The notes under the pieces were generated by a model, which searched no databases, had not been told where the DNA came from, and was given only the letters and a program-made list of their open reading frames with translations. A program made the position numbers and the translations under genes. Shown in pieces: positions 6,334 to 44,916 of a DNA stretch of 54,422 bases (position 1 is its first letter; every line of letters begins with the position of its first letter). Source of the DNA: Pseudomonadota bacterium (lineage in GTDB: Bacteria; Pseudomonadota; Gammaproteobacteria; Burkholderiales; Burkholderiaceae_C); contig JAKBCY010000003.1 in assembly GCA_021807445.1 (NCBI GenBank), positions 1-54,422 of the forward strand, given 5' to 3'.

Positions 6334-6615
6334 ATGGACTTTCCGCACGCAGAACCGAAGGAGACTTTGACGACCGTCAACCGCATGGTGAGCATCATGG
6401 CTGGCTTCATGGTCCTGCTCAGCCTGGCGCAGGGCACGGGCCAGATCGACCTGTTCCATCCGACCTGGCTGTGGCTCACGGCTTTCGTCGGCCTCAATCT
6501 GTTCCAGATGGGTTTCACCGGCTTCTGTCCCGCTGCCAAGGTGTTCAAGGCAATGGGCTTCAGGGAAGCCACCAACGCCTGTGGCACCTCCAACTCGGGC
6601 AAGAACTGCTGCTGA
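6334..6615 (+). CDS. DUF2892 (YgaP-type) small membrane protein
   Basis: A 93-aa protein with two hydrophobic helices (VNRMVSIMAGFMVLLSLA and PTWLWLTAFVGLNLFQMGFTGFCPAAKVF). The pattern NR-x-(14-20)-GxxGLxxxQ-xFTGFCPxxxxL is the DUF2892 signature, normally found C-terminal to rhodanese domains or alone. It ends in a Cys-rich tail (CGTSNSGKNCC). It starts 13 nt after the permease stop. A role in handling sulfur or thiol compounds at the membrane is plausible from the family. No catalytic function is known. Confidence 0.8.
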   Translation: MDFPHAEPKETLTTVNRMVSIMAGFMVLLSLAQGTGQIDLFHPTWLWLTAFVGLNLFQMGFTGFCPAAKVFKAMGFREATNACGTSNSGKNCC

Positions 6616-13127: not shown

Positions 13128-14392
13128 TGAGCATGATTGAAAGATTGAATCGCGATTGCTTCTGCGTCAGCCTCGATCGCAGGGCTCTGGCGCATGCCTT
13201 GGAGTCCGAGCTTGGCCAGCCCGGTCTGTACACGCTTATCCAGCATCGCAACCCTCACATGTTCTCTGCGCAGCCCGTCTTCGTGGCGACCAGACATATT
13301 GCCCGCATGCGAGATGTGGTGCAGGCCGTGGAGCGTGTTGCATCGTTGCCGCGCTTTGAGCAAACCGTGCTTGCTCGGGCGCCGGCGGCGGCACGCCACG
13401 ACCCCGGGAACCGGGGCATATTCCTTGGTTTTGACTTTCATCTGGAAGGCGAGTCATTGCATCTCATCGAGGTCAATACAAACCCGGGTGGTGCGCTCCT
13501 GTCAGCAGTGCTGGCACGCGCTCAACGAGCCTGCTGCGAGGAAATGCAAGCGATGGTCCCAAGCGCAGAGTCCGTTGACGCGTTCGAGGCCGACATCATG
13601 GCCATGTTCTTGCGAGAATGGCGCCAAGCAGGCCGCCGTGGCGAACCTCAATGCATAGCCATCGTCGACTCGGAGCCAACCTCACAGTACCTCTATGCCG
13701 AGTTCTTGCTGTTTGCGCGGCTGTTCGAACGCGCCGGCATCGACGTTGTCATTTCCGATCCAGCGGCGCTGCGCATGGAGGGTTCGCGCCTTTGGCATCG
13801 TGACAAGATCATCGATATGGTCTACAACCGGCTTACAGATTTCGGGCTTGAAACACAGGCTCATGCTGCCCTGCGCCACGCGTGGAGTGAGAATGCAGCA
13901 GTGATTACGCCGCACCCCCGCGCCCATGCGCTGTACGCCGATAAGCGCAACCTGGCGCTACTGAGCGATGTGGAATCCTTGCGCACACTGGGCGTGGATA
14001 GCGATACATCCAGGCCCCTCGCCGCGCATGTGCCACGGACGCAAATCGTCAGTGCGCAAAACGCGGAGGAACTCTGGGCCCAGAGGCGAGGCCTGTTCTT
14101 CAAACCGTGGGCTGGGTATGGCAGCCGCGCCGCCTACCGCGGCGCCAAACTCACCAAAGGCGTGTGGTCGGACATTGTGCGCGGCCAGTACGTCGCTCAA
14201 GCGCTGTCCCCTCCCGGCGAACGCAACATCGGCGACGCCAATGCCCCGCAGCCCCTCAAATTCGACCTGAGGGCTTATGCCGATGCAGGCCATGTGCTGT
14301 GGTTCAGCGCCCGGCTCTATCAAGGTCAAACCACGAATTTCCGCACACCGGGCGGAGGTTTCGCGCCCGTGTACACAGAGCCCGCCCCCTAA
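13127..14392 (+). CDS. ATP-grasp-like ligase of unknown substrate, coupled to asnB
   Basis: The track starts this frame at 13088, inside asnB; the ATG at 13127 overlaps the asnB stop (TGATG) and gives 421 aa. Features that recall ATP-grasp enzymes are GFDFHLEGESLHLIEVNTNPGG (about residues 99-125; acidic plus EVNTNPG, like the Mg-binding E-x-N of ATP-grasp folds) and, later, LFFKPWAGYGSRAAYRG (lysine and glycine-rich loop) and LKFDLRAYADAG. The unusual order of these blocks (the E-x-N early, the K-loop late) suggests a permuted or degenerate fold. No acetyltransferase domain is present, so it is not the known NAGGN synthetase. A peptide or amino-acid ligase is my best guess. Confidence 0.65.
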   Translation: MSMIERLNRDCFCVSLDRRALAHALESELGQPGLYTLIQHRNPHMFSAQPVFVATRHIARMRDVVQAVERVASLPRFEQTVLARAPAAARHDPGNRGIFLGFDFHLEGESLHLIEVNTNPGGALLSAVLARAQRACCEEMQAMVPSAESVDAFEADIMAMFLREWRQAGRRGEPQCIAIVDSEPTSQYLYAEFLLFARLFERAGIDVVISDPAALRMEGSRLWHRDKIIDMVYNRLTDFGLETQAHAALRHAWSENAAVITPHPRAHALYADKRNLALLSDVESLRTLGVDSDTSRPLAAHVPRTQIVSAQNAEELWAQRRGLFFKPWAGYGSRAAYRGAKLTKGVWSDIVRGQYVAQALSPPGERNIGDANAPQPLKFDLRAYADAGHVLWFSARLYQGQTTNFRTPGGGFAPVYTEPAP

Positions 14393-14406
14393 GAGGCATC
14401 AATCGT

Positions 14407-15732
14407 TTACCCTCGACCAATCCCGTAATAAGCCAACCCCGCGGCGCGTACGGACTGCGGATCCCAGAGATTGCGGCCATCAAATACGACTTTGGCGCGC
14501 AATTGCGAAGCCATTTGCTCGAAGTCGGGTGAACGAAATGCGTGCCATTCCGTGACCACGACGAGAGCATCTGCGTCGTGAAGAGCCGACGCGGCATCTT
14601 TCGTGAGCTCCACGCCAGGGCGATCTCCCCAGAGTCTGCGAGCGCTCTCGATTGCAACGGGATCAAAGGCCTTCACCCTGGCGCCTGCCGCAAGCAAGGC
14701 TTCAATGAGGTCGATGCTTGGGGCGTCCCGCATATCATCCGTATTGGGCTTGAATGCGAGTCCCCAGACAGCGATTGTGCGGCCTTTGACTCCATCAGCT
14801 GCGAAGTGTGCCGCAATCTTCTCAAACAGCCGCTGCTTCTGCCGCTGGTTGACCGCGTCGACTGCCTCGGCCAGCTCAGCTCGCAAGCCCGCTTCACGTG
14901 CCATGAAAGCGAGGGCCTTCACGTCCTTCGGAAAGCACGATCCCCCGTAGCCCGCACCGGCATATAGAAAGTGGCTACCAATGCGTTGATCCACGCCCAT
15001 TCCCAAGCGCACCTGCTCAATGTCGGCACCTACGGCCTCGGCCAACCGGGCGAGCTCATTCATGAACGAAATACGGGTGGCCAACATCGTGTTGGCGGCA
15101 TACTTGGTGAGTTCGGAACTAGCCGGGTTCATCATCATCATCTTTTCGTGATTACGGTTGAACGGCCGATACAGATCGCGCATCACCGCAATAGCCCGTT
15201 CGTCCGTACTGCCCACCACGATGCGGTCGCCACGCGTGAAGTCATCAATAGCCGAGCCCTCTTTGAGGAACTCGGGGTTGCTCACGACGCTGACCCAGTG
15301 GTGTACCCCTCGACGTGCCATTTCCTCGTTGATGATGCCTTGGACCATGGCAACGGTACCGACGGGGGCAGTGGACTTCTGCACGACGACGAGCGGGCCA
15401 TTGACGTATTGGCCAATTTCATGTGCGGCACCCCGTACCTGGCTCATATCGGCCTGCCCAGTGGGCAATGGCGGCGTGCCGACGGCGATAAAGCATACCT
15501 GCGTCCCATTGAGTCCCTGAGCAAGATTGGGCACGAAACCCATGCGTCCCGCCTGCGCGTTGTGTGCGACGAGTTCGCTCAGACCCGGCTCATAGAACGG
15601 CACTTGAGCTTTTTTCAGCGCAGCAATACGCCCGGCGTCGCGTTCAACGCAAATAACGGTGTTGCCAACATCGGCAAAGCATGCCGCAGTAACCAGGCCC
15701 ACATACCCAGCGCCGATAACGGTAACTCGCAT
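14407..15732 (-). CDS. ugd: UDP-glucose 6-dehydrogenase
   Basis: A 441-aa enzyme that oxidises UDP-glucose to UDP-glucuronate with two NAD+, feeding exopolysaccharide and lipid A sugars. The N-terminal Rossmann motif is MRVTVIGAGYVGLVTAACFAD; the catalytic Cys is in YGGSCFPKDVKAL; NPEFLKEGSAIDDF and FKPNTDDMRDAPS are also conserved. The start at 15732 is set by AAGGATGG upstream and by homology of the first residues, not by the track start at 15786. The gene is divergent from phaC across a 183-base region that holds an FNR-type box. It lies 14 nt from the end of the ATP-grasp gene, converging with it. Confidence 0.95.
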   Translation of the reverse strand: MRVTVIGAGYVGLVTAACFADVGNTVICVERDAGRIAALKKAQVPFYEPGLSELVAHNAQAGRMGFVPNLAQGLNGTQVCFIAVGTPPLPTGQADMSQVRGAAHEIGQYVNGPLVVVQKSTAPVGTVAMVQGIINEEMARRGVHHWVSVVSNPEFLKEGSAIDDFTRGDRIVVGSTDERAIAVMRDLYRPFNRNHEKMMMMNPASSELTKYAANTMLATRISFMNELARLAEAVGADIEQVRLGMGVDQRIGSHFLYAGAGYGGSCFPKDVKALAFMAREAGLRAELAEAVDAVNQRQKQRLFEKIAAHFAADGVKGRTIAVWGLAFKPNTDDMRDAPSIDLIEALLAAGARVKAFDPVAIESARRLWGDRPGVELTKDAASALHDADALVVVTEWHAFRSPDFEQMASQLRAKVVFDGRNLWDPQSVRAAGLAYYGIGRG

Positions 15733-15846
15733 GAATCCATCCTTGGTAATGTCGCAGTAGTCCGTTATTGTGCATGGACAGCGCACGGCTCAGTTCGACG
15801 CCATGACTCAGAAAGCTGCTTGCTCGCACGTCGGCAGCCGTTACGC

Positions 15847-15888
15847 TTGACACATATCAATCTCTGTGCGGCGTTGCAGCATTACAAA
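15847..15888 (+). promoter_or_regulatory. FNR/ANR-type class II promoter of the phaC operon
   Basis: TTGACACATATCAA (15847-15860) matches the FNR/ANR consensus TTGAT-N4-ATCAA with one mismatch. TACAAA at 15883-15888 fits a -10 element. A start near 15895 would put the box centre at -41.5, the exact class II activator position. It is the best-formed regulatory site in the window and suggests induction at low oxygen. It could also influence the divergent ugd gene. Confidence 0.7.
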
Positions 15889-15915
15889 TAACCTATAGGC
15901 CTTAAGGAGATGGGC

Positions 15916-17856
15916 ATGAAATCCAACGCGCACCCCCGTCCTTCGCGCCGTACGCGCGCAGGTACCGTCGTCGGGATCGCCTCGGCGCCTGAAAAGCTTA
16001 TCCCAAGAGCTCCCGAGTCAGACTCCCCCCAACCGCTCATGCCTAATAATGATCGATCCCTTGCGGTGATTCCGCCGACACCTCCAAGCGCCGAACCCGC
16101 AGCCTGCTTGAGTCCGCCGCCTCAGCCCGACGCTGGACTGGCTGAGTTGATCGATCGAGCCGCACACGCCATGCAGGCCAGACGCACGCTCGGTTTATCA
16201 CCCGCGTCTCTGGGGCTGGCCGCGGCTGATTGGTGGACGCACCTCGCCGCCTCGCCGGGAAAACGCCTGGCGTTAGCAGGAAGCGCCTTACGCGACGCAG
16301 CGATCTACGCTGGGTATTGCGCTCGCGCAATGGCGCACCGGCCAGGCACGAGTGATGCAGCACATTGCATCAGCCCCACGCCAAACGACCGGCGTTTCGC
16401 CGATCCGGCTTGGCAACGGTACCCATTCAACTTGCTTCAACAGGCCTTCCTGTTACAGCAAGACTGGTGGCACAACGCTACATCCGGCGTGCGTGGCGTG
16501 TCCAGACATCATGAACAGGTGGTTGCTTTTGCTGCGCGGCAATGGCTGGACATGCTCGCACCAACCAATTCACCCTTGACGAATCCTGAAGTCATCGACG
16601 CCACGCTCAGGACTGGAGGCATGAATTTGGTCGATGGCGCCAAAGCTTGGATGGATGATTTGCGGCGCGTGATGAGCGGCCAGCCACCTGCCGGAACGGA
16701 GAGCTTCGTCCCGGGGAAGCAGGTCGCTCTCACCCCGGGCAAGGTGGTGCTGCGCAACCGGCTCATCGAGCTCATTCAATACAGCCCCAGCACCACGCAG
16801 GTTTGGGCCGAGCCGCTTCTGGTGGTACCCGCTTGGATCATGAAGTATTACATCCTCGACCTCTCGCCCCACAATTCGATGATTAAGTATCTTGTCGACC
16901 AAGGCCACACGGTCTTCATGATTTCATGGAAAAACCCGGGCGCCGAGGACCGCGAACTTGGGATGGATGATTACCTCGCACTCGGCCCTCTTGCCGCGCT
17001 GGACGCGGTGGAGCGAATTCAGCCCGGCCGAAAGGTACACGCAGCCGGCTACTGCTTGGGCGGCACTCTTTTGTCCATTGCTGCTGCGGCCTTGGCCGCC
17101 AAGGGGGATGATCGCCTAGCAACCGTTACGCTTTTGGCCTCGCAAATCGACTTCACCGAGCCTGGCGAGCTGTCCTTGTTCATCGACGAAAGCGAGGTGA
17201 GCTTCCTAGAGGACATGATGTGGGCGCAGGGTTATCTGGACACCACGCAGATGGCCGGTGCGTTTGAGATGCTGCGCTCGTATGACCTGATCTGGTCACG
17301 CATTACCCGCGACTACCTAATGGGCCAGCACCGACCTCCAAATGACTTGATGGCCTGGAATGCCGACGCCACGCGCATGCCCGCACGCATGCACAGCGAA
17401 TACCTGCGTGGGCTCTATCTGAACAATGACTTGGCTGAAGGACGCTGGAAGGTGAACGGCCGGACAGTTACGGTGGAAGATGTGCCGCTTCCCTGGTTTG
17501 TCGTCGGCACCGAGGCTGATCACGTTGCGCCTTGGCGGTCGGTGTACAAAATTCATCTGCTGGATCACAGCGAGGTGACTTTCGTGCTGACTAGCGGTGG
17601 CCACAATGCCGGCATCGTCAGTGAACCGGGACACCCGCGCCGCCATTATCACTGGGCGTTGCACAAGCATGACAGCGGATTTCAGGCCCCTGAGCAATGG
17701 CTGGAGCAGGCTACGCCGGAAGAAGGATCATGGTGGCCACGCTGGAGCGCGTGGTTGTCAGCCCACAGCAGCCAAATGACTGCGCCGCCGCCCATGGGCA
17801 TTGCGGGCGCCAAGCCGCTGATGAACGCGCCGGGCAGCTACGTACTGCAACGCTAA
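15916..17856 (+). CDS. phaC: Poly(3-hydroxyalkanoate) synthase
   Basis: The enzyme polymerises (R)-3-hydroxyacyl-CoA into PHB granules. The lipase-like box is GYCLGG with catalytic Cys380; the triad is completed by Asp535 (GTEADHVAP) and His563 (SGGHNAGIV). The core is class I-like (SWKNPGAEDRELGMDDY). The protein is 646 aa, a little longer than the common 590, because of a low-complexity Pro/Arg-rich N-terminal tail. The ATG at 15916 has AAGGAG six bases upstream; the track's ATG at 15910 is directly against that site and is less likely. It is the first gene of the run phaC, maoC-pta, ackA, which links polymer synthesis to acetyl-phosphate metabolism. Confidence 0.93.
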   Translation: MKSNAHPRPSRRTRAGTVVGIASAPEKLIPRAPESDSPQPLMPNNDRSLAVIPPTPPSAEPAACLSPPPQPDAGLAELIDRAAHAMQARRTLGLSPASLGLAAADWWTHLAASPGKRLALAGSALRDAAIYAGYCARAMAHRPGTSDAAHCISPTPNDRRFADPAWQRYPFNLLQQAFLLQQDWWHNATSGVRGVSRHHEQVVAFAARQWLDMLAPTNSPLTNPEVIDATLRTGGMNLVDGAKAWMDDLRRVMSGQPPAGTESFVPGKQVALTPGKVVLRNRLIELIQYSPSTTQVWAEPLLVVPAWIMKYYILDLSPHNSMIKYLVDQGHTVFMISWKNPGAEDRELGMDDYLALGPLAALDAVERIQPGRKVHAAGYCLGGTLLSIAAAALAAKGDDRLATVTLLASQIDFTEPGELSLFIDESEVSFLEDMMWAQGYLDTTQMAGAFEMLRSYDLIWSRITRDYLMGQHRPPNDLMAWNADATRMPARMHSEYLRGLYLNNDLAEGRWKVNGRTVTVEDVPLPWFVVGTEADHVAPWRSVYKIHLLDHSEVTFVLTSGGHNAGIVSEPGHPRRHYHWALHKHDSGFQAPEQWLEQATPEEGSWWPRWSAWLSAHSSQMTAPPPMGIAGAKPLMNAPGSYVLQR

Positions 17857-17884
17857 GCCTCAAGAACATCCGCACCGATATGCC

Positions 17885-19306
17885 ATGGCAGACCTGATCG
17901 AAAACCACCCAATCGCTGAACTGAAGGTCGGAAACTCGGCATCGCTGACTCGGAACTTCACCGAGGATGAAGTGCAGACCTTTGCGCTGATGTCGGGTGA
18001 TGTGAACCCTTCGCACGTGGATGCAGCATTCGCCGCGAGCGATCCCTTCCACAAAGTGGTGGCGCATGGCATGTGGTCAGCCGCACTGATCTCCAATGTC
18101 CTTGGCACCCAGCTGCCAGGCCCGGGGACGGTGTATCTAAGCCAAGATCTCCGATTTCTCAAGCCGATGTACCTCGGCGACACCGTGCGCGTAACCGTGA
18201 CCGTCACCGCAGTCGACACGACCGCGGGCCGCGCACCTCGCGCCACTTTGCACTGCACCGTGGTCAATCAGCGCAACGAGACAGTTGTCGAGGGGTCCGC
18301 CGACGTGCTTGTACCGACCGAGAAAGTACGCCGCCCGCGTGTGCACCTTCCCAAGCTGGAACTACGCGATCCTGGCGTAAAGCTGCGGGCAATCATTGAA
18401 CAGGCACGCACTAGACTTTCTGGGCGGCCACCCCTCTCCATGGCGGTGGTGCACGCCGTGGACGCCGTCTCTTTGGGTGGGGCGGTGGATGCGGCCAAGG
18501 CGGGATTGATCCGTCCGACTTTCGTCGGCCCGAAGGCCAAAATGTGTGCCGCCGCTGCAGCCGCTGGCATTGATCTCACGGCTTATCCCCTTGTGGCGAC
18601 CGAGCACAGCCATGCCGCGGCTGACAGGGCCGTCGCCATGGCGCGTGCAGGTGAGGTGCAGGCACTGATGAAGGGCTCGCTGCACACGGATGAGCTCATG
18701 CATGCGGTGGTCGATCCACAAACGGGACTGGGTACGGCGCGGCGCGTCAGCCATGTCTTCGTGATTGATGCCGTGGGCCAAGCTCGCTTGCAGCTGCTGA
18801 CCGATGCCGCGGTGAACGTAACGCCGGATCTGGAGGCCAAGCGTGACATTGTCCAGAACGCGATCGATCTGGCGCACGCCCTGGGCATTGCACAGCCCAA
18901 GGTCGCCATTCTCTCGGCTGTGGAAACCGTCACCCCCAAGATTCCGTCCACGATTGATGCAGCCGCTTTGTGCAAGATGGCTGACCGGGGACAGATCACA
19001 GGCGGCCTACTCGACGGCCCGCTCGCCTTCGACAACGCTGTATCCAAGCGCGCCGCAGATACCAAAGGTATCGTCTCGAGAGTTGCCGGTCAGGCTGACA
19101 TTCTTGTAGCGCCGGATCTGGAGGCAGCCAACATGCTTGCGAAACAGCTTGAGTATCTCGCCGAGGCCGAGATCGCTGGCATCGTCCTGGGCACACGCGT
19201 GCCCGTGGTACTCACCAGCCGCGCCGATCTTTCCGACGCGCGTATGGCCTCGTGCGCCTTGGCCGTACTGCTGGATCTGGCAACGCGCACAAAGCCGCAT
19301 GTATGA
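17885..19306 (+). CDS. MaoC-like (R)-enoyl-CoA hydratase fused to phosphate acetyl/butyryltransferase
   Basis: A 473-aa fusion. Residues about 1-140 form a MaoC hot-dog domain with FALMSGDVNPSHVD and AHGMWSAALISNVLG (the Asp/His hydratase motif). Residues about 155-473 form a PTA/PTB domain (SLHTDELMHAVVD, RRVSHVFVIDA, GLLDGPLAFDNAVS). The first half would hydrate crotonyl-CoA to (R)-3-hydroxybutyryl-CoA, the PhaC substrate; the second interconverts acetyl-CoA (or another acyl-CoA) and acyl phosphate. Similar fusions are known in proteobacteria. The gene follows phaC by 28 nt and its stop overlaps ackA (ATGA), so acyl phosphate is probably handed straight to the kinase. Confidence 0.92.
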   Translation: MADLIENHPIAELKVGNSASLTRNFTEDEVQTFALMSGDVNPSHVDAAFAASDPFHKVVAHGMWSAALISNVLGTQLPGPGTVYLSQDLRFLKPMYLGDTVRVTVTVTAVDTTAGRAPRATLHCTVVNQRNETVVEGSADVLVPTEKVRRPRVHLPKLELRDPGVKLRAIIEQARTRLSGRPPLSMAVVHAVDAVSLGGAVDAAKAGLIRPTFVGPKAKMCAAAAAAGIDLTAYPLVATEHSHAAADRAVAMARAGEVQALMKGSLHTDELMHAVVDPQTGLGTARRVSHVFVIDAVGQARLQLLTDAAVNVTPDLEAKRDIVQNAIDLAHALGIAQPKVAILSAVETVTPKIPSTIDAAALCKMADRGQITGGLLDGPLAFDNAVSKRAADTKGIVSRVAGQADILVAPDLEAANMLAKQLEYLAEAEIAGIVLGTRVPVVLTSRADLSDARMASCALAVLLDLATRTKPHV

Positions 19307-20505
19307 ACGCCTCTCTTCTCAGCCTCAATGCCGGTTCGGCGAGCCTCAAGTTCGCGTTGTTCGATAGCGCCATCGACAGCAACTCTTCGAGTCTTCCGAC
19401 GCCGATTTTGCGTGGTGAGATCGACGCACCAAGCAGCAAACCGACTTTGACCTATACCCATGCGGGCGAACCCTCCCGTACGGAGGCATCCAATGCACCG
19501 CGAGGCGACATTGGCGGCGAAACCACGTGGCTCATCGATTGGCTGACGCGAAATTGCGAAGCGCCGCGCCCCACGCTTGTAGCACATCGCATTGTCCATG
19601 GAGGACTGCACTATAACGAGTGCGTGCGCATCACGCCGGGGGTGTTTGCTGATCTCCAAAGGCTAACAAGCTTGGCGCCACTGCATCAAGGCCCTGGTCT
19701 TGCGGGTGTGCAAGCCGCGCAAGCCAGCCTCCCGGAGGCCATGCAAGTGGCTTGTTTCGATACCGCATTCCATGCAAAGCACACTGATGCCGAGCGGCGT
19801 TATGCGATTCCACGCGCATGGCACGAACGCGGCTATCAGCGCTATGGCTTTCATGGTCTGTCATATGACGCTATTAGCCGCCGTCTACCTGCCGTGCTAG
19901 GAGAGCAGGCGCATGGATCGGTGGTCGTCGCGCATCTTGGCAGTGGCGCAAGTCTCTGTGGCATGCGCGACCTTCAAAGCGTCACGACGACAATGGGTTT
20001 CACTGCGCTTGACGGACTCGTGATGGGCACACGCTGCGGCGCGCTCGACCCGGGCCTTGTCCTGCAGTGGTTTCAGCACGATGGCATGCAATCAGAAGAA
20101 GTCAGCGATTTGCTCTACAAGAAAAGCGGGCTTCTCGGCGTGTCCGAGATCAGCGCGGACACACGCGACCTTCTCGCCAGCAAGGACCCGCGAGCCCAAC
20201 AAGCCCTTGACGTTTTCGTGGCCAGTATCGTGCGCCAAACGGGAGCGATAATTGCCACATTGGGCGGGCTAGACGCGCTGGTGTTCACCGGAGGCATTGG
20301 GACCCATCAACCCATGATCCGAGCCGCCGTGGTGCAAAAACTTGCCTGGCTGGGCTTGGTGACCAACGTCGAGGCAAATGCAAATGGAGATCTGAATATC
20401 GCCTCCAGTTCCAGCCGCATTCCCATCTTTGCGCTGCCGACTGACGAAGAAGCCGTGATGGCAGCGCAGGCGGCGGTCCTGCACACAGCTAGCGCCAAGA
20501 GGTGA
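19303..20505 (+). CDS. ackA: Acetate kinase
   Basis: A 400-aa kinase converting acetyl phosphate plus ADP to acetate plus ATP. Motifs are LNAGSASLKFALFD, VAHRIVHGG, CFDTAFH with the catalytic Asp, YGFHGLSYDAISRRLP, HLGSGASLCGM, MGTRCGALDPG and FTGGIG. The track starts 51 bases earlier inside pta; the ATG at 19303 overlaps the pta stop as ATGA, a standard coupling. The family also includes propionate and butyrate kinases, but acetate is most likely given the phosphoketolase elsewhere in the window. It is followed only 4 nt later by a DUF4010 gene. Confidence 0.93.
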   Translation: MNASLLSLNAGSASLKFALFDSAIDSNSSSLPTPILRGEIDAPSSKPTLTYTHAGEPSRTEASNAPRGDIGGETTWLIDWLTRNCEAPRPTLVAHRIVHGGLHYNECVRITPGVFADLQRLTSLAPLHQGPGLAGVQAAQASLPEAMQVACFDTAFHAKHTDAERRYAIPRAWHERGYQRYGFHGLSYDAISRRLPAVLGEQAHGSVVVAHLGSGASLCGMRDLQSVTTTMGFTALDGLVMGTRCGALDPGLVLQWFQHDGMQSEEVSDLLYKKSGLLGVSEISADTRDLLASKDPRAQQALDVFVASIVRQTGAIIATLGGLDALVFTGGIGTHQPMIRAAVVQKLAWLGLVTNVEANANGDLNIASSSSRIPIFALPTDEEAVMAAQAAVLHTASAKR

Positions 20506-20509
20506 ACTC

Positions 20510-21793
20510 ATGACTGGCCCCCTACCTCCGCTTCTCTTGCAGTTCACGGCAACTGTGGTGCTCAGCTTTGTGCTTGGCCTTGAACTGCACAGCTACCGTC
20601 GTGCACAGGATGAAGGCATCGGCTTCGGCACCACTCGCACGCTTACCCTTATTGGCGCGGCGGGTTTTGTGCTTTGGCTTCTCGACGGTTCCGCACCGCG
20701 TGGGCTTTTTGTGGCGGGCCTGGCGGCGCTGGCGGTCTGGTTGGCGGTGGACTTGGCTCTACACGGCACTGCCGGGGCCGATGGTGGCGGCGCTCTCCTG
20801 CCCTCGGTCATCGCTTTGCTTGCCTTTGCGCTCGGGCCGCTCGTGCTCACGCAACCCGATTGGCTGGTGGCTGCCATATTGATCGTCACTATTTTGATGC
20901 TGGCAGAAAAACCGCTGATCCGTCGCCTGTCCGACGCCATGCCGATGACTGAGGGCGTGACCCTGGTCAAGTTCCTCATCCTCGCTGGGCTAGTTCTCCC
21001 TCTCCTGCCCAACACACCGATTCCAGGTCTCGTCGACATCACGTACGCCAAAATCTGGATGGCTGTCGTCTTGATTTCCACCATTTCTTATGCGGGCTAC
21101 TTGGCGCACACCTACGTGTTTCCCAACGCCGGCACCTTGCTCACGGGCGTCCTCGGCGGGGTATATTCCAGCACAGCGGCCACTGTCGTGCTTGCGCGGC
21201 AAGCACGACTCGACATGCGCATTGCTTCACAAGCGCCTGCCGCAATCGTTTTGGCAACAGCAATGATGTATGTCAGACTGTGGATCGTGATCCTTGCCCT
21301 GGGTCACTGGCCAGCGGCACTGCATCTTGCGTTACCGTTCACGCTCCTGCTCGCTGGCTCGCTCGGCCTAACTTGGCTTCTCTGGCAACGCGGCAACCGA
21401 GAGGCGCCGCAAGCGCCCGGTGCCACACTCGGAATGCGCCACGCCAATCCACTTGACTTGCCCGTTGCTTTTCTATTTGCTGGACTTTTCGTGGCATTCG
21501 CTGCCATCACGAACTTCGTCACCCAGCATTTCGGAGCGACAGGCCTGCACGTGCTGAGCTTCCTTGTCGGCTTTACCGACATTGATCCATTCGTGCTTTC
21601 ACTTTTGGCCGGACACTTTCAGGTGAGCGACGCAGCCGTGATCACGGCCGTGCTCATTTCAACCGGCAGCAACAATCTTCTTAAAGCTGCCTATGCGATG
21701 GGACTATCCAGACAAAGAACCATGCTGCCAGCAGCGGCTTGGCTTGCATTTACCCTGCTGCTGTCTCTGGGCTGGGCGGCATGGGTGACATAA
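20510..21793 (+). CDS. DUF4010/MgtC-like multi-pass membrane protein
   Basis: A 427-aa, very hydrophobic protein with about 12 membrane helices. The N-terminal part (LSFVLGLELHSYR, GIGFGTTRTLTLIGAAGFVLW) resembles the MgtC/SapB domain, and the C-terminal two thirds (LVKFLILAGLVLPLLP, GGVYSSTAATVVLARQA, SFLVGFTDIDPFVLSLL) is the DUF4010 domain. Its transport function is unknown. It begins 4 nt after ackA and its end overlaps the start of the proton ATPase gene, so all are likely on one transcript. The tight link to ackA could mean acetate or cation handling, but this is speculation. Confidence 0.8.
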   Translation: MTGPLPPLLLQFTATVVLSFVLGLELHSYRRAQDEGIGFGTTRTLTLIGAAGFVLWLLDGSAPRGLFVAGLAALAVWLAVDLALHGTAGADGGGALLPSVIALLAFALGPLVLTQPDWLVAAILIVTILMLAEKPLIRRLSDAMPMTEGVTLVKFLILAGLVLPLLPNTPIPGLVDITYAKIWMAVVLISTISYAGYLAHTYVFPNAGTLLTGVLGGVYSSTAATVVLARQARLDMRIASQAPAAIVLATAMMYVRLWIVILALGHWPAALHLALPFTLLLAGSLGLTWLLWQRGNREAPQAPGATLGMRHANPLDLPVAFLFAGLFVAFAAITNFVTQHFGATGLHVLSFLVGFTDIDPFVLSLLAGHFQVSDAAVITAVLISTGSNNLLKAAYAMGLSRQRTMLPAAAWLAFTLLLSLGWAAWVT

Positions 21794-24177
21794 ACCTTAC
21801 TGCCAAACACTCGCATATGCACCCCGCCACCTTTGTTGCCGAAACTGCGACTACCGATCATGCTCGGGGCCTGACCAGAGATGAGGTGAGTCAGCGCCTG
21901 GCGCAATCGGGGCCGAACGCCATCCCGGATGAGACGGTCGCCGCCTGGCGCCAATTTTTGGACAAATTCTGGGCGCCGGTGCCGTGGATGCTTGAAGCCG
22001 TGATCGTGTTACAGATCATGCTGGGGCGTGCCCCGGAGGCAATCGTGATCGCCGCGTTGTTGCTGTTCAACGCGGTGGTCGCCTTCGCGCAGGAGCAGCG
22101 CGCCAAGGACGCGCTGGCCTTGCTGCGCAAGCAACTGCACGTCAACGCCCGCGTCCTGCGCGACGGGGCTTGGTGCACGGTCCCCGCCGAGCAGTTGGTG
22201 CCGGGCGACGTGGTGCACGTGCGAGCTGGTGACTTGGTTCCGGCCGATCTGCAATTATTCGAAGGCGATGTCGCGCTCGACCAGGCTGCACTAACCGGCG
22301 AATCACTTCCAGTAGACGCAGGCGCTGGAAAATCCGCTTATACCGGCTCCATCGTGCGTCAAGGGGAGGCCAGCGGTATCGTCACGGGCACCGGCGCACA
22401 CACCTTCTTCGGCCGAACGGCGGAACTCGTCCGCACGTCAAACGCGCCCAGCCATATGCAACGCACCATTTTCGGGATCGTTGAACGACTCGTGATGTTC
22501 GATGCGGTTCTGGTCGCGTTTGTTGTGGTCTATGCCCTGTTGCACCACATGCCCATGCTTGATACCGCAGTGTTCGCGCTCATGCTGCTGGTGGCGTCCG
22601 TCCCGGTAGCCCTGCCGGCCACCTACACGCTAGCCACAGCGATCAGTAGCATGCAGCTCGCGCATCAAGGCGTCCTGGTTACGCGGCTTCCGGCAGTGGA
22701 AGAGGCTGCTGCAATGGACACGCTGGTGTCGGACAAGACCGGGACACTGACGCAAAACACACTCACGCTAGAGGCTGCGATGCCCTTGGCAGCGGACACA
22801 GACGCTGACCGTGTGCTGTACGCAGCGGCGCTAGCGAGCGACGACGCCACACAGGATCCATTGGATCTTGCCATTCTCGGCCCTGCCCGCAAACAAGGAC
22901 TTCTACAGAGCGCGCCACCACGTCAGGCTTTTCACCCATTCGACCCCGCCACCCGCCGCAGCGAGGGCGTATACATCGCCGACGGCAAACCTTGGCATGC
23001 GCTAAAGGGGGCAGCCAGTGTAATCGGACCCCTTTGCCGGCTCGATCGCGCGCAACAGGATGCGCTCGACGCCGCAGAACGACAGCTTGCCGCCAGTGGC
23101 GCGCGCGTGCTTGCGGTGGCGGCTGGTGGTGAAGATGCCTTTCAGCTCCTCGGCGTCGTCGGCTTGTCGGACCCGCCGCGTCCGGACGCCGCCAATCTGA
23201 TCGCGCAGCTCGCGCTACTCGGCGTGCGCGTACGCATGGCCACAGGCGACGCACTGGAAACTGCGCGCGCCATCGGCACCGCGCTGGGCCTCGGCACGCG
23301 CGTATGCGAAGCACGAGGTGACGCCCTGCGCAACCCTGAAAACTGTGACTTGTTTGCCCGCGTGCTGCCAGAGGACAAGCATGCGATCGTGCAAGCGCTG
23401 CAACGCACTGGCCACGTCACCGGCATGACTGGCGACGGCGTGAACGACGCTCCGGCACTACGTCAGGCAGAACTTGGCGTGGCCGTGGCAAGCGCCACCG
23501 ATGTGGCAAAAGCTGCTGCCGGAGTGGTCCTCACCGATCCGGGCCTATCGGGTGTTCTCACCGTGGTGCGCACAGGGCGCGAGGTGCATCGACGCATGCT
23601 CACCTACACGTTGAACAAGACGCTCAAGACGTTCGAAATCGTTGTTTTCCTCACTCTGGGCTTGTGGCTCACAGGACGCTTCGTCATGTCGTCGACGCTG
23701 ATCGTACTGCTGCTGTTTACCAACGATTTCGTCACCATGACAATCGCCACCGATCACGTGCAACCCGCGCCGCGCCCTCAGCGCTGGCAGGTACGAAAGC
23801 TCGTCGGCGCCGCCCTCGTATTTGCGGCGCTGTCGCTTGCATTCTCGTTTTCGTTCTACTGGTGGGCACGTGCCAGCCAAGGCCTTTCCGCGCCGCAGTT
23901 GCAGACCGTCGTTTTCCTGATCCTGGTCTTCACCACTCAAGCAAGTATCTACGTGCTTCGCAGCGACGGTCGGCTGTGGTCGTTACCGCCCAGTCGTTGG
24001 ATGCTACTCGCAAGCCTTGGTGACGTATTCGTGGTGAGCCTTTTGGCCAGCTTCGGCGTCTTGATGGCCGCACTGCCCTGGGGACTAATCGCCAGACTCA
24101 TCGCATGCGTCGTGGTATTCGCACTTGCCCTTGATCAGACCAAGCGCATCGTGTTCAACCGCTTTGCCATCGTCTGA
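21781..24177 (+). CDS. P3A-type plasma-membrane proton ATPase
   Basis: A 798-aa P-type ATPase. Motifs are TGES (172-175), DKTGTLTQNTLTLE (Asp318), SVPVALPATYTL in M4, GMTGDGVNDAPALRQAELGVAVASATDVAKAAAGVVL. The combination of the M4 motif and the last block is that of the Pma1/AHA proton pumps, not of metal or Ca pumps. Such pumps export H+ at the cost of ATP and raise cytoplasmic pH. The start at 21781 overlaps the DUF4010 stop; ATG 21817 is also possible. The track start at 21739 lies deeper in the previous gene. Its place behind the acetate-forming operon suggests protection against self-made acid. Confidence 0.9.
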   Translation: MGDINLTAKHSHMHPATFVAETATTDHARGLTRDEVSQRLAQSGPNAIPDETVAAWRQFLDKFWAPVPWMLEAVIVLQIMLGRAPEAIVIAALLLFNAVVAFAQEQRAKDALALLRKQLHVNARVLRDGAWCTVPAEQLVPGDVVHVRAGDLVPADLQLFEGDVALDQAALTGESLPVDAGAGKSAYTGSIVRQGEASGIVTGTGAHTFFGRTAELVRTSNAPSHMQRTIFGIVERLVMFDAVLVAFVVVYALLHHMPMLDTAVFALMLLVASVPVALPATYTLATAISSMQLAHQGVLVTRLPAVEEAAAMDTLVSDKTGTLTQNTLTLEAAMPLAADTDADRVLYAAALASDDATQDPLDLAILGPARKQGLLQSAPPRQAFHPFDPATRRSEGVYIADGKPWHALKGAASVIGPLCRLDRAQQDALDAAERQLAASGARVLAVAAGGEDAFQLLGVVGLSDPPRPDAANLIAQLALLGVRVRMATGDALETARAIGTALGLGTRVCEARGDALRNPENCDLFARVLPEDKHAIVQALQRTGHVTGMTGDGVNDAPALRQAELGVAVASATDVAKAAAGVVLTDPGLSGVLTVVRTGREVHRRMLTYTLNKTLKTFEIVVFLTLGLWLTGRFVMSSTLIVLLLFTNDFVTMTIATDHVQPAPRPQRWQVRKLVGAALVFAALSLAFSFSFYWWARASQGLSAPQLQTVVFLILVFTTQASIYVLRSDGRLWSLPPSRWMLLASLGDVFVVSLLASFGVLMAALPWGLIARLIACVVVFALALDQTKRIVFNRFAIV

Positions 24178-24196
24178 TGGCTGGAGAATCCGCGAT

Positions 24197-25321
24197 ATGA
24201 CCGGGGCAGCCAAGCAGCCATCGAAGCTTCCGAACGTCAACGTGCCCATTTTCTGGCCGGCGCAACTAGCCGCCAATATGGCTGACGAGGGTTTGGATCT
24301 TTTCGCCCGCAATGTTAAGTTCCTCACTGAGGAGTCGCGCCTGCACGGTGGCCTAAAGCCACGTTTGGCCACCGCGCATATCGAGCGTCTCAAGCTGCGC
24401 ACGCTGACACTGTGCGACTATTCAGCGCCGAATGCCAAGGGCACTCCGACCCTGGTCGTTGCCCCGTACGCCGGGCACACCTCGATGATCGCCGATTACC
24501 ACGAGGGCCAGAGCCTGATGCAGACCCTGCGTCGCGCGAGCGTCGAGCTTTTGTTCCTTACCGACTGGCATAGCGCTACGCCGGATATGAAAGACCTGGA
24601 AGTTGATCAATACTTGGCCGAGCTTTTGGCCTGCATCGACGACCTAGGCGGTCGCGTCAACTTGGTCGGCCTGTGTCAAGGCGGGTGGACCGCGGCGATG
24701 CTGGCAGCGCGCTTTCCCGAGCGGGTTGCCAGCCTGGTGCTAGCCGGCTCCCCGATTGACACCCACGCAGGCAATGGCCCGCTGGTGAAAATGGTCAAGG
24801 CCAGTCCGATGAGCTTTTACGAAGACTTGGTGTCCTCTGGCGGCGGGTTGATGCTCGGCAAATACATGCTCGCTGGATGGAAGAACATGCACCCCGAGCA
24901 GCACTACGTGCAAGAGCACATCGACTTGTACGAGCACATCGACGACCCGGTCTGGCTGTCCAAGACAGAGGCGTTTGAACGCTGGTACGAGAATCCGCTT
25001 GACCTCCCAGGGCGATGGTACCTGCAGGTGATCGATCAACTATTCAAGCGCAATTTTCTGGCCAAAGGCAAGTACGTCGCGCTCGGCCGCATATTAAGCC
25101 TTAAAGCCGTGACCTGCCCTCTCTATCTTCTCGCTGGCGAAAGCGATGACATTACCAATCACAAGCAGGTTTTCGCCGCTGAGGCACTTTGCGGCACACC
25201 CAAGGTCGACACCAAAAAGCGCATGGTTCCGGGAGGGCACGTCGGCCTGTTCATGGGCTCGCGCACACTTAGGGAAGCCTGGCCCGAAATTGGCGGCTGG
25301 ATTGTGGCTCAAGGGCGTTGA
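24197..25321 (+). CDS. PHB depolymerase/PHA synthase-like alpha/beta hydrolase
   Basis: A 374-aa protein of the PhaC/PhaZ superfamily. The nucleophile elbow is GLCQGG with Cys160, as in class III synthases, where intracellular PhaZ normally has a Cys in VCQP. Asp317/Asp318 (AGESDDIT) and His348 (PGGHVGLFMGS) complete the triad, and the C-terminal block resembles the PHB_depo_C domain. It could therefore degrade PHB or act as a polymerase-like partner. The start at 24197 has GGAG 10 nt upstream. It lies 19 nt after the proton ATPase, at the end of the phaC run. Confidence 0.8.
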   Translation: MTGAAKQPSKLPNVNVPIFWPAQLAANMADEGLDLFARNVKFLTEESRLHGGLKPRLATAHIERLKLRTLTLCDYSAPNAKGTPTLVVAPYAGHTSMIADYHEGQSLMQTLRRASVELLFLTDWHSATPDMKDLEVDQYLAELLACIDDLGGRVNLVGLCQGGWTAAMLAARFPERVASLVLAGSPIDTHAGNGPLVKMVKASPMSFYEDLVSSGGGLMLGKYMLAGWKNMHPEQHYVQEHIDLYEHIDDPVWLSKTEAFERWYENPLDLPGRWYLQVIDQLFKRNFLAKGKYVALGRILSLKAVTCPLYLLAGESDDITNHKQVFAAEALCGTPKVDTKKRMVPGGHVGLFMGSRTLREAWPEIGGWIVAQGR

Positions 25322-25846
25322 TCCGGCGGGCTGGGCATTGAGTGCACGGTGCGCCTTGCTGCGTGATGCCCTCAAACGCTCGGAATCGCTCCCCACAATG
25401 TCCCCAGAGTGAAAGCGGGCAAAGCTTCGCTCCCTTTATCGGCCATCGCAGCCACTCCGAGCAACACACACAAACTTCAGCGCCGCGTGCCATCTTTGAG
25501 CTTCAGCATTGCTCAGCCTGTGGCCCGCAAAGCGCGACGGATGAGGTGACTGTTGCGAATTCCATCCACGGTTTTGCGGTCAAACATTCCCCGTCCAAAT
25601 GCGCCTGCATCGCCCTTGCCGACGCCTTCGGCCCATCCTCGTTCAGACATCATTCGGCGATCATTCGAGCGGTGGCTCCAGACTAAACCTGACGCGTTTG
25701 GCTACGCCGAACAGCGCTAGAAAAGCTCCTGCGAGCCAGACCAGCCGGCGCAAAGCCAGAACTAGCAGGGCCAATATCCCCGCAGACGCCCTGCCCCTCC
25801 CCACTCACGCATCGTGTCCAGGCCGGACGGCCACCGCAGAGCCGGT
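25322..25846. other. Gene-poor gap between the phaC run and the first ABC exporter
   Basis: About 525 bases between convergent genes. The only item of note is a minus-strand frame 25661-25804 with a GTG start that encodes one strongly hydrophobic helix (ILALLVLALRRLVWLAGAFLALFG), without a good ribosome binding site. No clear terminator hairpin was found. Confidence 0.4.
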
Positions 25847-26956
25847 TCAGGCCATGCGGTGTCGGAAGAGCCATGCGGCAGCGGCCATGCTGGCCAAGCC
25901 AATCAGCGCCAGCGGCGCGTACTGCGGCAATAGCATGTGCACGCTTTCGCCTTGCAGGAACACACCGCGCACGATGACGAGGAAATAGCGCATGGGGTTG
26001 AAATAGGTCAACAGCTGCACCGCTTCGGGCATGTTGGCAATCGGGGTAGCAAATCCTGAAAGAATGACCGACGGCACCAAAAACATGAATACGCCGAGAA
26101 GACCCTGCTGCTGCGTGACAGCCAGAGCGGAAATCATCAACCCGATTCCGATGGCGGCCAGCAAAAAGAAAAACAGTCCCAAAGCCAGTGCAGCGATGCT
26201 GCCGACAAAAGGCACCTTGAACCACAATACGGCCATCAGCGCAATGAAGCTACCCTCCAGTCCACCGATGACGAACCCTGGAACTGCTTTGCCAACCAGA
26301 ATCTCGAACGGCCCCATTGGTGTCACCAACAGTTGATCGAAGGTACCCATCTCGCGCTCCCGCGCAACCGAGAGCCCCGTGACCAGAAGCGTCACCACCA
26401 ATGTAAGCAGCGCAACGATGCCCGGCACGATAAACCAGCGCGACAGAAGGTTTGGGTTAAACCACGCGCGGATGTCGAGCTTCGCCGGCAGTCCCGGTTC
26501 ACCATGCGCGCCAGCCCACTGCTGGTTAAATTCCCAGAGCACGCCGCCGACATCATTGAGGGCCAGCGATGCCGTGTTCGAATCGCGTCCATCAATGATG
26601 ATCTGAAGCTGGGCCTGCTTTCCCGTAAGCAACTCCCGCGTGAAATGCTGCGGTACGTGTAACACGAGAAGCGCCTTCTTGGCGTCGATCAGCTGGGCAA
26701 TCTGCGATTGGCGATTTATCGTAGCAACCTGCTCGAAGGTCCTGGAGCCAGCAAAGCGCGATAGCAACTCGCGTGCTGCGTAGCCCGCGTCCTCGTTATA
26801 GACGGCGTAGGGTATGTGGTTAAGATCAAAGCTCGCGGCGTAGCCGAACACCATCAGCTGAATCAGCGGAGGCACGATGAGAACCGTTCGGCTGGCCGCA
26901 TCGCGTAGCACGGCGAGCAACTCCTTGGCGATCAATGCGAGGATGCGTGCCCACAT
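25847..26956 (-). CDS. ABC-2 type permease (YbhR/YbhS-like), exporter 1
   Basis: A 369-aa permease with one N-terminal helix, a large periplasmic loop (about 40-170) and five C-terminal helices. The motif VAREREMGTFDQLLVTPM is the characteristic amphipathic segment of ABC-2 permeases. It is the last gene of the hlyD-ATPase-permease-permease operon and starts 13 nt after the partner permease. Together the two permeases form the channel of a YbhFSR-type efflux pump for drugs or other hydrophobic compounds. Confidence 0.9.
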   Translation of the reverse strand: MWARILALIAKELLAVLRDAASRTVLIVPPLIQLMVFGYAASFDLNHIPYAVYNEDAGYAARELLSRFAGSRTFEQVATINRQSQIAQLIDAKKALLVLHVPQHFTRELLTGKQAQLQIIIDGRDSNTASLALNDVGGVLWEFNQQWAGAHGEPGLPAKLDIRAWFNPNLLSRWFIVPGIVALLTLVVTLLVTGLSVAREREMGTFDQLLVTPMGPFEILVGKAVPGFVIGGLEGSFIALMAVLWFKVPFVGSIAALALGLFFFLLAAIGIGLMISALAVTQQQGLLGVFMFLVPSVILSGFATPIANMPEAVQLLTYFNPMRYFLVIVRGVFLQGESVHMLLPQYAPLALIGLASMAAAAWLFRHRMA

Positions 26957-35748: not shown

Positions 35749-36081
35749 CACAGGACCCCCACTCGCTCGGAAAAACCTAATGAGTCTGCGCGCCTTTAAA
35801 GCGAATTTCCTTGACTTACATCAGGAAGAACAGAAGCTGCTCGAAAATTCGCGATCCTGCCCGAATCGAGGACCTTCCGCAGGCACACGACGCTACGCGT
35901 GGCCAAGCAACGACGAGCCCCGTCGCATCCAACTCATAGGCGTCTGACGTCCCCTGCCCCCGATTCGATTCTCGAAAGCCAGATCCATTGGGTCGCACTT
36001 CACCATAAGGCCCCGGGCGGGGCGCACGACCCTGGCACAGCGCGCCCAAAGAGACCCGATGCGGCGCGCTGGCGTCATTCC
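35749..36081. other. Upstream region of the phasin gene
   Basis: About 330 bases between the Hsp20 stop and the phasin start. It contains the FNR-like site described separately. The small minus-strand ORFs here (61 and 89 aa) have no recognisable features. Confidence 0.4.
35811..35824 (-). promoter_or_regulatory. FNR-like box upstream of the phasin gene
   Basis: TTGACTTACATCAG (read on the plus strand; CTGATGTAAGTCAA on the minus strand) matches TTGAT-N4-ATCAA with two mismatches. It lies 63 bases upstream of the phasin ATG. No convincing -10 element stands at the class II distance. Confidence 0.4.
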
Positions 36082-36528: not shown

Positions 36529-36734
36529 GATGCACCTCTCTTTTGCGCGGGCTCCATTTGTATGGCCCACCTGGCCCGCCTACAGGTAGCAGCCACTGAA
36601 TTGCGCGAAGCATCCGATGCGCACCCCGCAATCGGGCTCGCGGCCGTTGCGAGGAAGCCAGGGACAAAGAAGAATTCCTGGCGATCTGCATAGACACTCA
36701 TAAATTGAGTTTGCGCCGTCGCAGATGTTTTTTC

Positions 36735-36748
36735 CTTGACGCGCATCA
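36735..36748 (-). promoter_or_regulatory. Weak FNR-like box upstream of hsp20
   Basis: TTGACGCGCATCAC (plus strand reading) has two mismatches to TTGAT-N4-ATCAA. It lies 207 bases upstream of the Hsp20 ATG, just past the end of the exporter 2 operon. The long distance and missing -10 make it uncertain. Confidence 0.25.
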
Positions 36749-36802
36749 CCTAATTGCGTCGCCGATGCGCTTGACGCGCTGTCTCCGCGCCGAAGAAACG
36801 CA

Positions 36803-42335: not shown

Positions 42336-42485
42336 GCCATATGCGCCCCCCTGCCGCGCCTGCAACCCAGCCGCCGTAGGGGCTGACTGAGAGATCGGAA
42401 GACATGATTTGTGGCGAATTCAAGCCCAAACAGGCGCCAAGCCGTGTCCATGGCAAGAGTGTGCTCGTGACGAGACAGGACGCAC

Positions 42486-42499
42486 TTGATCTGCGTCAG
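42486..42499 (-). promoter_or_regulatory. FNR-like box, identical to the one before the phosphoketolase gene
   Basis: TTGATCTGCGTCAG, one mismatch from the common proteobacterial form TTGATCTGCGTCAA. The same 14-mer occurs at 48993-49006. It lies in the gap between the end of the nuclease gene and exporter 2, 523 bases before the exporter 2 adaptor and about 150 before the possible small ORF. The direction of action is open, since the site is nearly palindromic. Confidence 0.5.
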
Positions 42500-42538: not shown

Positions 42539-43948
42539 TCACCGCAGCATGATGGGCTCGCTCATGCCCGGGATCTGCCAGGGCTTGCGGTGCTTGTCCA
42601 GCAGTTCGCCGAATACCTTCATGCCTTTGTCAAAATCACCATGGACCAGAAACACCTTCTCCGGTTTGCCGCAGAGCTGGAGCCAGGCGAGGAGCTCACT
42701 TTGTCCGGCGTGAGCGGAAAAGCCGTTAATGGTGTGAATTCGGGCCCGCACCTGGACCTGCTCGTCAAACAGACGCACACTCTTTGCACCGTCGATGATC
42801 GAGCGTGCCAGAGTGCCATGCGCGGCATAGCCGACAAAAATCACGCTGGCGGCGGCGTTCCAGAGGTTGTGGCGAAGGTGGTGGCGGACGCGCCCTCCCG
42901 TGGCCATCCCCGAGCCAGCCATGATCACTGCACCTCCGCGTATGGTGTTGATCGCAATGGATTCCGACGCATCGCGCGTCATGCGCAGTCCAGGGAGCGC
43001 GAACGGGTCATCGTCGCGCAAACGCCTCGTGAAGCTTTCGCGCATTGCCTCCGGATAACGGATAAAGATTTCCGTAGCCGAAATCGCCATCGGAGAATCG
43101 AGAAAGACCGCTAAGTACCGAGGCAACTTCTGCAGTCGCATCCCCTCGGACAATGCGTAAAGCACTTCCTGCGCGCGCTCAAGTGCAAAAGTCGGAATCA
43201 CGACGTTCCCGCCTCGCGCATGCGTTGTGGCAATCGCGTCAATGAGCTCGTCGATAGACGCCCCCCAAGGTCGATGGTCGCGGTCGCCGTAGGTAGTTTC
43301 CATCACCACATAGTTGGGTGGCGCGGGCGGACCCTGAGGGTCGTCAAGTAGCGGTCGACCAGGATTTCCGATGTCACCAGAAAAATAGATACTCCGGGTC
43401 GCGCCCGCATCTTCCACTTCGAGATAAATCGAGGCAGACCCAAGGATATGCCCCGCGTTCATGAATGTGGCATGTACACCCTTGGACACTTCCATGCGGA
43501 CGCCATATGCGGCGGAGCCATCAAAATGATCCATGCTGCGAAACGCCTCCGCCAGGGTGTAGAGAGGCAGTGGTGGTAGCTGTTGTTCATCCCCTCGGTG
43601 CCTTGCGTGACGTTCTGCGCGCCGCGCCTCCTCCTCCTGCAGGCCCGCTGAGTCGGCAAGAACCAGCCGAGTGAGTTCGCGCGTGGGCGCGGTGGCGATG
43701 ATGCGACCACGAAATCCACGCTTGACCAGTAAGGGAATGCGCCCACAATGGTCCAAATGGGCATGGGTGAGCAAGAGCACATCAATGGTGCTGGCGTCGA
43801 AGCCGAATTCCTCAGCATTTTCCTCGGCGAGCTCATGCCCGCCTTGAAACAGGCCGCAATCAATGAGCACACGGGAACTCTCGGTCTCGACCAAATGGCA
43901 GGATCCAGTGACCTGCTTGGCGGCTCCGTGGCTAGACAGGCGAATCAT
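42539..43948 (-). CDS. MBL-fold beta-CASP RNA/DNA nuclease
   Basis: A 469-aa metallo-beta-lactamase fold protein. Metal motifs are THAHLDHCG (His62, His64, Asp66, His67), the later GHILGSAS and SGDIGNPGRPLL; the beta-CASP part includes GSGMATGGRVRHHLRHNL and the final INGFSAHAGQSEL. Related proteins (YSH1/CPSF73-like) cut or trim RNA. The start overlaps the stop of the PRPP-synthetase gene by 4 nt. It is the last gene of the phosphoketolase operon, where RNA breakdown would supply nucleotides to the phosphorylase. Its substrate is inferred from the fold only. Confidence 0.88.
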   Translation of the reverse strand: MIRLSSHGAAKQVTGSCHLVETESSRVLIDCGLFQGGHELAEENAEEFGFDASTIDVLLLTHAHLDHCGRIPLLVKRGFRGRIIATAPTRELTRLVLADSAGLQEEEARRAERHARHRGDEQQLPPLPLYTLAEAFRSMDHFDGSAAYGVRMEVSKGVHATFMNAGHILGSASIYLEVEDAGATRSIYFSGDIGNPGRPLLDDPQGPPAPPNYVVMETTYGDRDHRPWGASIDELIDAIATTHARGGNVVIPTFALERAQEVLYALSEGMRLQKLPRYLAVFLDSPMAISATEIFIRYPEAMRESFTRRLRDDDPFALPGLRMTRDASESIAINTIRGGAVIMAGSGMATGGRVRHHLRHNLWNAAASVIFVGYAAHGTLARSIIDGAKSVRLFDEQVQVRARIHTINGFSAHAGQSELLAWLQLCGKPEKVFLVHGDFDKGMKVFGELLDKHRKPWQIPGMSEPIMLR

Positions 43949-44916
43949 GGCTGTGCTCCTGTATTGATTGTTGCCCGGGTTGGCGCAGCCTGCGCGGCAT
44001 TGCCAGCGAGCATGTCAAGTACGGCTTGCGCTGTGTCTTGTGTGAGATCGATGATCTCGACACCTTCATCGTTCGCAGTGGCCACGGTGTCGGTGACCGC
44101 GAGCTTCGCCGCGCCTGCGAAGCGAACCTCGTGCAGCGCATCACCCGCGAACAGACCGTGAACAGCAATGCACACGGGGGGTAACGCGTGCCGCTGCCGC
44201 AGATGGTCCAGCACTGCGACCAGGGTACGCCCCGAGCTGACGATGTCGTCGAGCAGCACTGGCGTTCGGCCGGGATGGAGGTGCAAATCCGGCACTGTCG
44301 AGCGCACCTCTTTGTCACCCATTCTGGTCTTCTCCACAATGACCACAGGCGCACCTGCACGTGCCGCCACATCGGCCGCCCACTGAGCGCTTTCGGAATC
44401 AGGGCCAATGATCAGTGGCCTTTCCACATGGTCCTTAATCCACTCCGCAAGGCGTGGCGCAGCATGCACCACCGTGCATCGCAGGGTGTAAAGCTGCGAC
44501 AGTTCATGAATGCGATGCAAGTGCGGATCTACCGTGATCAACCAATCGAAGTACCTCGAGAGAAGCTTGGCATACACCCGGGCCGAGACTGCTTGTCCAT
44601 CCAGAAATCGTTTGTCCTGGCGCATATAGGCCAGATACGGAGCCACCAGTCCGACTTCCACAGCGCCCAACTCGCGCAGGGTGCTTGCCGCCATAAGTAA
44701 CGGTACGGTTTTCGGGTCTGGGTCATTTAGTGTGCACACCACCACAGCTTGGCGCCCCGCCTCGGGATGTTGCACACGCACCAGCGTCTCACCATCGGGA
44801 AACCGGTGGACCACGCACTCTGCGACTTGGACGTCAGCGTGGTCGGCAAGCGCACGCGCAATGGCCTGTGCCCGTTCCTCATTGCCAGGCAAGGGATAGA
44901 GGGTGAGAGCCGGCAT
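43945..44916 (-). CDS. Ribose-phosphate diphosphokinase (PRPP synthetase) homologue
   Basis: A 323-aa member of the PRPP synthetase/phosphoribosyltransferase fold. Visible are FPDGETLVRV, APYLAYMRQDKRF with GQAVSARVYAKLL, VDPHLHR (divalent metal and ATP loop) and the PRPP loop VLLDDIVSSGRTL. The flexible-loop and regulatory residues of housekeeping Prs are changed, so it is probably a specialised class (class III-like). It begins 1 nt after the phosphorylase stop. It could make PRPP from ribose 5-phosphate and ATP or run backwards, making ATP and ribose 5-phosphate from PRPP and AMP. The direction is unknown. Confidence 0.85.
   Translation of the reverse strand: MPALTLYPLPGNEERAQAIARALADHADVQVAECVVHRFPDGETLVRVQHPEAGRQAVVVCTLNDPDPKTVPLLMAASTLRELGAVEVGLVAPYLAYMRQDKRFLDGQAVSARVYAKLLSRYFDWLITVDPHLHRIHELSQLYTLRCTVVHAAPRLAEWIKDHVERPLIIGPDSESAQWAADVAARAGAPVVIVEKTRMGDKEVRSTVPDLHLHPGRTPVLLDDIVSSGRTLVAVLDHLRQRHALPPVCIAVHGLFAGDALHEVRFAGAAKLAVTDTVATANDEGVEIIDLTQDTAQAVLDMLAGNAAQAAPTRATINTGAQP

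Follow-up and report, generated by a model that had tools for sequence, protein, structure and literature searches.

In the 54,422-nucleotide stretch of DNA analysed here (the window), which is part of an 82%-complete draft genome from a betaproteobacterial genus, a class II FNR/ANR-type promoter in all likelihood precedes a second PHA synthase gene, phaC. This promoter is predicted to be activated at low oxygen and to drive phaC, maoC-pta and ackA, probably together with the three genes that follow. The explanation rests on sequence, spacing, conservation, the presence of FNR homologues and gene order, from which we infer the start site, the acting FNR paralogue and the oxygen response. That the promoter is real and oxygen-responsive appears very probable because its signal and spacing have been kept in relatives while the surrounding DNA has changed. 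The result is a conserved and specific prediction of a low-oxygen operon in which a second PHA synthase is joined to a phosphotransacetylase and an acetate kinase, in a genus that, in the present search, is known largely from metagenome-assembled genomes. One of these was deposited as Thiomonas sp., and a search of the literature on Thiomonas and FNR found nothing relevant.

The promoter elements lie on the plus strand. The FNR/ANR box, TTGACACATATCAA (15847-15860, centre 15853.5), is a perfect match to TTGAT/C-N4-A/GTCAA, and a spacer of exactly 22 nt separates it from the predicted -10 hexamer TACAAA (15883-15888). From this geometry, transcription is predicted to start at the A at 15895; relative to it, the box is centred at -41.5 and the hexamer covers -12 to -7. 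The place of a -35 element holds ATCTCT (15860-15865), which does not resemble a -35 hexamer, and none was found there in the phaC upstream regions of relatives either. The initial annotation, made from this DNA alone, had given the box, its spacing, TACAAA and the -41.5 position relative to a start at about 15895; all of this proved correct to the base, the start itself being a prediction. Its class II FNR/ANR reading is supported by the exact spacing and the lack of any hexamer resembling a -35 where one would be expected, and also by three observations detailed below: a footprint of fixed spacing, canonical phaC copies without a perfect box, and FNR homologues with cluster cysteines. Further downstream, a ribosome-binding site, AAGGAG (15904-15909), and the common ATGAAR start among relatives indicate that phaC should begin at the ATG at 15916 and not at 15910.

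Such an arrangement had also been judged unlikely to arise by chance, a view borne out by counts in the genome, shuffles of the window and the footprint in the genus. In the 2.75-Mb genome, the perfect pattern TTGAYNNNNRTCAA was counted 16 times and a reversed control pattern twice, and the perfect consensus is found twice in the window. With one mismatch allowed, the window contains 13 matches versus 3.8 expected, a number reached by none of 100 shuffles. The other perfect boxes of the genome served as a count only and not as further evidence; many of them lie inside coding sequences or beside genes without an evident place in an FNR regulon.

We compared the upstream regions of orthologous phaC genes, of which 18 were readable in the same genus and 24 came from other genera. 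Within the genus, 16 of 18 regions carry a perfect box, as against 2 of 5400 dinucleotide-shuffled regions. Conservation is concentrated in the half-sites (mean information 1.38 and 1.50 bits), whereas the four central bases of the box (0.41 bits) and the flanks (0.37 and 0.31, near background) have drifted. The left half-site is degenerate in G016 and G002. N22-TACAA(A/G/C) is kept in 12 of the 16 regions with a perfect box, and TACAAG likewise stands at N22 in G016, whose box is degenerate. Other -10 readings in the genus are TAGAAA, or CATAAT one base further; this latter placement, one base beyond N22, is the best one in G026, G002 and G018. At L016/L017, no -10 was found at N22. CAGCAT at N16, considered as an alternative -10, scored highly in the genus and not outside it, and was rejected. 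The conserved GCAGCATTACAA block was likewise discarded as an independent genome-wide motif, having 2 perfect copies and near-background counts with mismatches.

The pattern of conservation bears on a simpler reading, in which TTGACA (15847-15852) would serve a constitutive promoter as an ordinary sigma-70 -35 element, the palindrome being incidental. The first six bases of the box are indeed a perfect TTGACA. However, the hexamers 16-18 bp downstream (CGGCGT/GGCGTT/GCGTTG) offer no -10, a consensus scan of 14300-25900 found no sigma-70 promoter, all 18 genus sequences share the right half-site TCAA, and several of these have TTGAT in place of TTGAC. We regard a constitutive promoter as highly improbable.

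Sequences within a genus share ancestry, and the test was therefore redone on the loci from other genera. There, a perfect box precedes 11 of 24 phaC genes and a box within one mismatch 16 of 24 (0.08% and 1.9%, respectively, in shuffles), and N22 is the offset with the highest mean -10 score (3.97, versus 1.0-2.94 at the others). For a negative control, we turned to the canonical phaC copies in those genomes: none of 14 has a perfect box (15 regions were taken, 14 of them with the gene by tblastn), and the 15 regions yielded three single-mismatch matches. Likewise, in Telluria/Massilia and Rhodopseudomonas a box within one mismatch accompanies 4 of 7 PhaC proteins resembling that of the window (50-60% identity) and 0 of 4 canonical ones. 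An identity of 57-62% to one of the paralogues in Massilia and Rhodopseudomonas makes it likely that the window protein belongs to the PhaC2 clade.

The box sits in an intergenic region common to phaC and its divergent neighbour ugd (UDP-glucose dehydrogenase; 14407-15732, minus strand; PF03721, PF00984, PF03720), and it could serve ugd, or both genes, as a repressor or activator site. A TATTGTGCATG-type block (window 15743-15785), which lies about 30 bp upstream of the ugd start and is kept in most relatives, is probably that gene's own promoter. The distance between this block and the box varies among relatives, whereas that from the box to the -10 on the phaC side is fixed; the reverse strand has no -10 at N22 (AGCAAG), and beyond the genus the box remains with phaC. 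A role of the site in ugd control thus seems very unlikely.

The phaC gene (15916-17856, plus strand) encodes a class I type PHA synthase (PF07167, 2.3e-56), the second, PhaC2-like paralogue. TIGR01838 is its best model but matches below the cut-off, and the putative catalytic residues are present (GYCLGG, DHVAP, GGHNAG). It is followed on the same strand by a maoC-pta fusion (17885-19306), coding for an enoyl-CoA hydratase/phosphate acetyltransferase (NF006045, 3.9e-200; PF01515, PF01575), and by ackA (19303-20505), an acetate/propionate kinase gene (PF00871, 1.6e-91; TIGR00016 above cut-off). Three probable further members of the operon are a DUF4010 membrane protein gene (20510-21793; PF13194), which begins after a 4-bp gap, a proton-type P-ATPase gene (21790-24177; TIGR01647 above cut-off) and, probably last, a DUF3141/PHB_depo_C alpha/beta hydrolase gene (24200-25321; PF11339, PF06850). 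From phaC to this hydrolase the genes are closely packed and arranged as in G021, G013 and G010; several relatives share the succession phaC/maoC-pta/ackA after the box.

Candidate regulators are encoded in the genome, which has about eight CRP/FNR-like HTH proteins. Two of them, L001 and L002, possess CxxCx5C, a fourth cysteine (EACEID) and an ETVSR recognition helix, and the FNR region of L002 aligns with a solved FNR (E 6e-45). A third, L003, matches the FNR type, with an unreadable N-terminal part. For all three the NCBIfam Fnr subfamily model is the best match, yet below its strict cut-off. Several FNR/CRP paralogues could share the TTGACACATATCAA site. It might also be read by another CRP/FNR protein, of the DNR/NnrR or FixK type, sensing NO or a phosphorelay and not oxygen directly: near-identical motifs are known to be bound by DNR and FixK-type proteins (for FixK2, PMC5934665), and the eight or so proteins of the genome include L008, with an ETASR helix and an incomplete set of cysteines. 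We nevertheless consider such a reader unlikely, as at least two paralogues have the full FNR cysteine set together with the E..SR helix, and the best-studied relatives of the window phaC are under Fnr1 (PMC5934665) or FixK2 (PMC10888616), which are both low-oxygen regulators. Another protein, L007 (G000:C115), is FNR-like with cluster cysteines and has a recognition helix without E..SR (SQARIGR), which suggests a different DNA target.

The spacer between box and -10 is conserved in the genus alignment beyond what a spacer requires, and it contains a PhaR-like site that the initial annotation had overlooked. The element, visible only by scoring against relatives, has a core, GGCGTTGCA (15870-15878, plus strand), that matches YGCRNYGCR, described as the PhaR core in S. 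meliloti (PMC12542648), with one mismatch (its first triplet is GGC). In addition, TGCGGCGTTGCAG (15867-15879) agrees with 7/9 of the consensus of the PhbF operator, TG[N]TGC[N]3GCAA, which has footprint support (PMC3206438); the exact PhbF consensus and an exact TGC-N3-GCA are both absent from the window promoter. Across 15 genus representatives, the 30 bp after the box score 7.27 of 9 versus 5.14 (sd 0.21) in shuffled sequences, with 0/2000 reaching that value, and versus 5.3-5.9 in adjoining 30-bp segments. Beyond the genus, the same segment scores 6.35 versus 5.12 (again 0/2000). YGCRNYGCR occupies the corresponding position in 13 of the 15 representatives (7 perfect and 6 with one mismatch, the window's GGCGTTGCA included); in total 14 of 15 are within one mismatch, these being non-independent sequences of one genus among which the window copy is itself mismatched and one of the weaker ones. 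The genome also encodes a PhaR homologue (PF07879, E 7.5e-30), and two similar PhaR-type sites lie upstream of the canonical phaP. The conserved element resembles known PhaR/PhbF operators in spacing and core and coexists with a PhaR gene, but the putative site of the window differs in its GGC triplet. The chances that it is a PhaR operator seem to us about even.

Control of a second PHA synthase by low-oxygen regulators has precedents. In the betaproteobacterium Herbaspirillum seropedicae, whose PhaC2 has been placed in the clade to which the window protein likely belongs (PMC5862806), Fnr1 directly targets the dksA-phaC2-fabI operon (PMC5934665), and the phaC2 transcript falls 100-fold in a triple fnr mutant (PMC5862806). 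The two systems have in common an FNR-type box, a second PHA synthase paralogue and a class II position, shown at -42 for fnr1 there and predicted here. They differ in operon partners, dksA and fabI there versus maoC-pta and ackA here, and in evidence: Fnr1 binding was demonstrated by ChIP-seq (PMC5934665, PMC5862806), whereas the window is known from its sequence. In Bradyrhizobium diazoefficiens, phaC2 (bll6073) is a FixK2 target and is up 6.8-fold in a phaR mutant (PMC10888616). It is like the window gene in being a second paralogue with, as proposed here, low-oxygen activation by a CRP/FNR protein and repression by PhaR. FixK2, however, is controlled by FixLJ and is not an oxygen-labile Fe-S FNR, and the PhaR gel shifts considered here do not include phaC2. 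Regulation of phaC by FNR or FixK2 is already documented in Herbaspirillum and Bradyrhizobium, and the window promoter is a well-built further example, predicted from its sequence. The novelty may lie in the composite FNR/PhaR layout.

The proposed mechanism would operate as follows. At low oxygen, an FNR paralogue in its [4Fe-4S] form would dimerise on TTGACACATATCAA, replace the missing -35 contact and recruit RNA polymerase to TACAAA, with transcription starting at ~15895 and the transcript spanning phaC, maoC-pta, ackA and probably three further genes. Probably, though with less confidence, PhaR bound in the spacer would add repression, lifted once PHB granules sequester it, a step inferred from PhaR biology (PMC12542648). 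The operon products would then shift acetyl groups among acetyl-phosphate, acetyl-CoA and polymer, gaining ATP via AckA and an electron sink via PHB. With a probability slightly below even, these two inputs form a composite switch that some lineages of Alpha- and Betaproteobacteria have conserved, in which FNR/FixK would activate from -41.5 and spacer-bound PhaR would block until PHB granules remove it. If so, the operon would be made ready by low oxygen and set off by the polymer itself, which would couple the metabolism of acetyl-phosphate and acetate to PHB. A real PhaR site would mean that a small promoter integrates two inputs, oxygen and stored carbon, and would directly explain why both FixK2 and PhaR are reported to control phaC2. 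The initial annotation had predicted an oxygen response of PHB synthesis and acetate kinase; such a response of the phaC-pta-ackA operon is the stronger prediction and that of PHB synthesis the weaker, since the synthase encoded here is a second one of PhaC2-like type and oxygen control of its operon does not by itself imply oxygen control of PHB content.

Beyond the phaC promoter, a second perfect FNR-type palindrome, TTGACGACCGTCAA, occurs at 6367-6380 of the window, just after an ArsP-type permease gene; neither strand shows a -10 at N22, and the palindrome was not found in G021. Four further class II-like sites on the minus strand have near-consensus boxes, each with a -10-like hexamer at N21-N22. 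CTGATGTAAGTCAA-N22-CAGACT (35783-35824, box 35811-35824) precedes a phasin gene, GTGATGCGCGTCAA-N22-CAAACT (36708-36749, box 36736-36749) an Hsp20 gene, and CTGACGCAGATCAA-N22-CACACT (42458-42499, box 42486-42499) lies about 500 bp before an HlyD/ABC operon; all three arrangements recur in G021. The fourth, TTGATCTGCGTCAG-N21-GACAAT (48966-49006, box 48993-49006), stands before a phosphoketolase gene (46492-48978), and its box is kept in G021 and G010. The window additionally holds an acetoacetyl-CoA reductase-like SDR. The region looks like an FNR-controlled island, as judged from these predicted sites, and may resemble the low-oxygen-activated (lxa) locus of Burkholderia cenocepacia. Behind the fourth, class II-like FNR site, a tight minus-strand operon (42539-48978) encodes the phosphoketolase and thymidine/AMP-phosphorylase-like, PRPP-synthetase-like and beta-CASP RNase proteins, and possibly provides a route from RNA or nucleosides to acetyl-phosphate at low oxygen.
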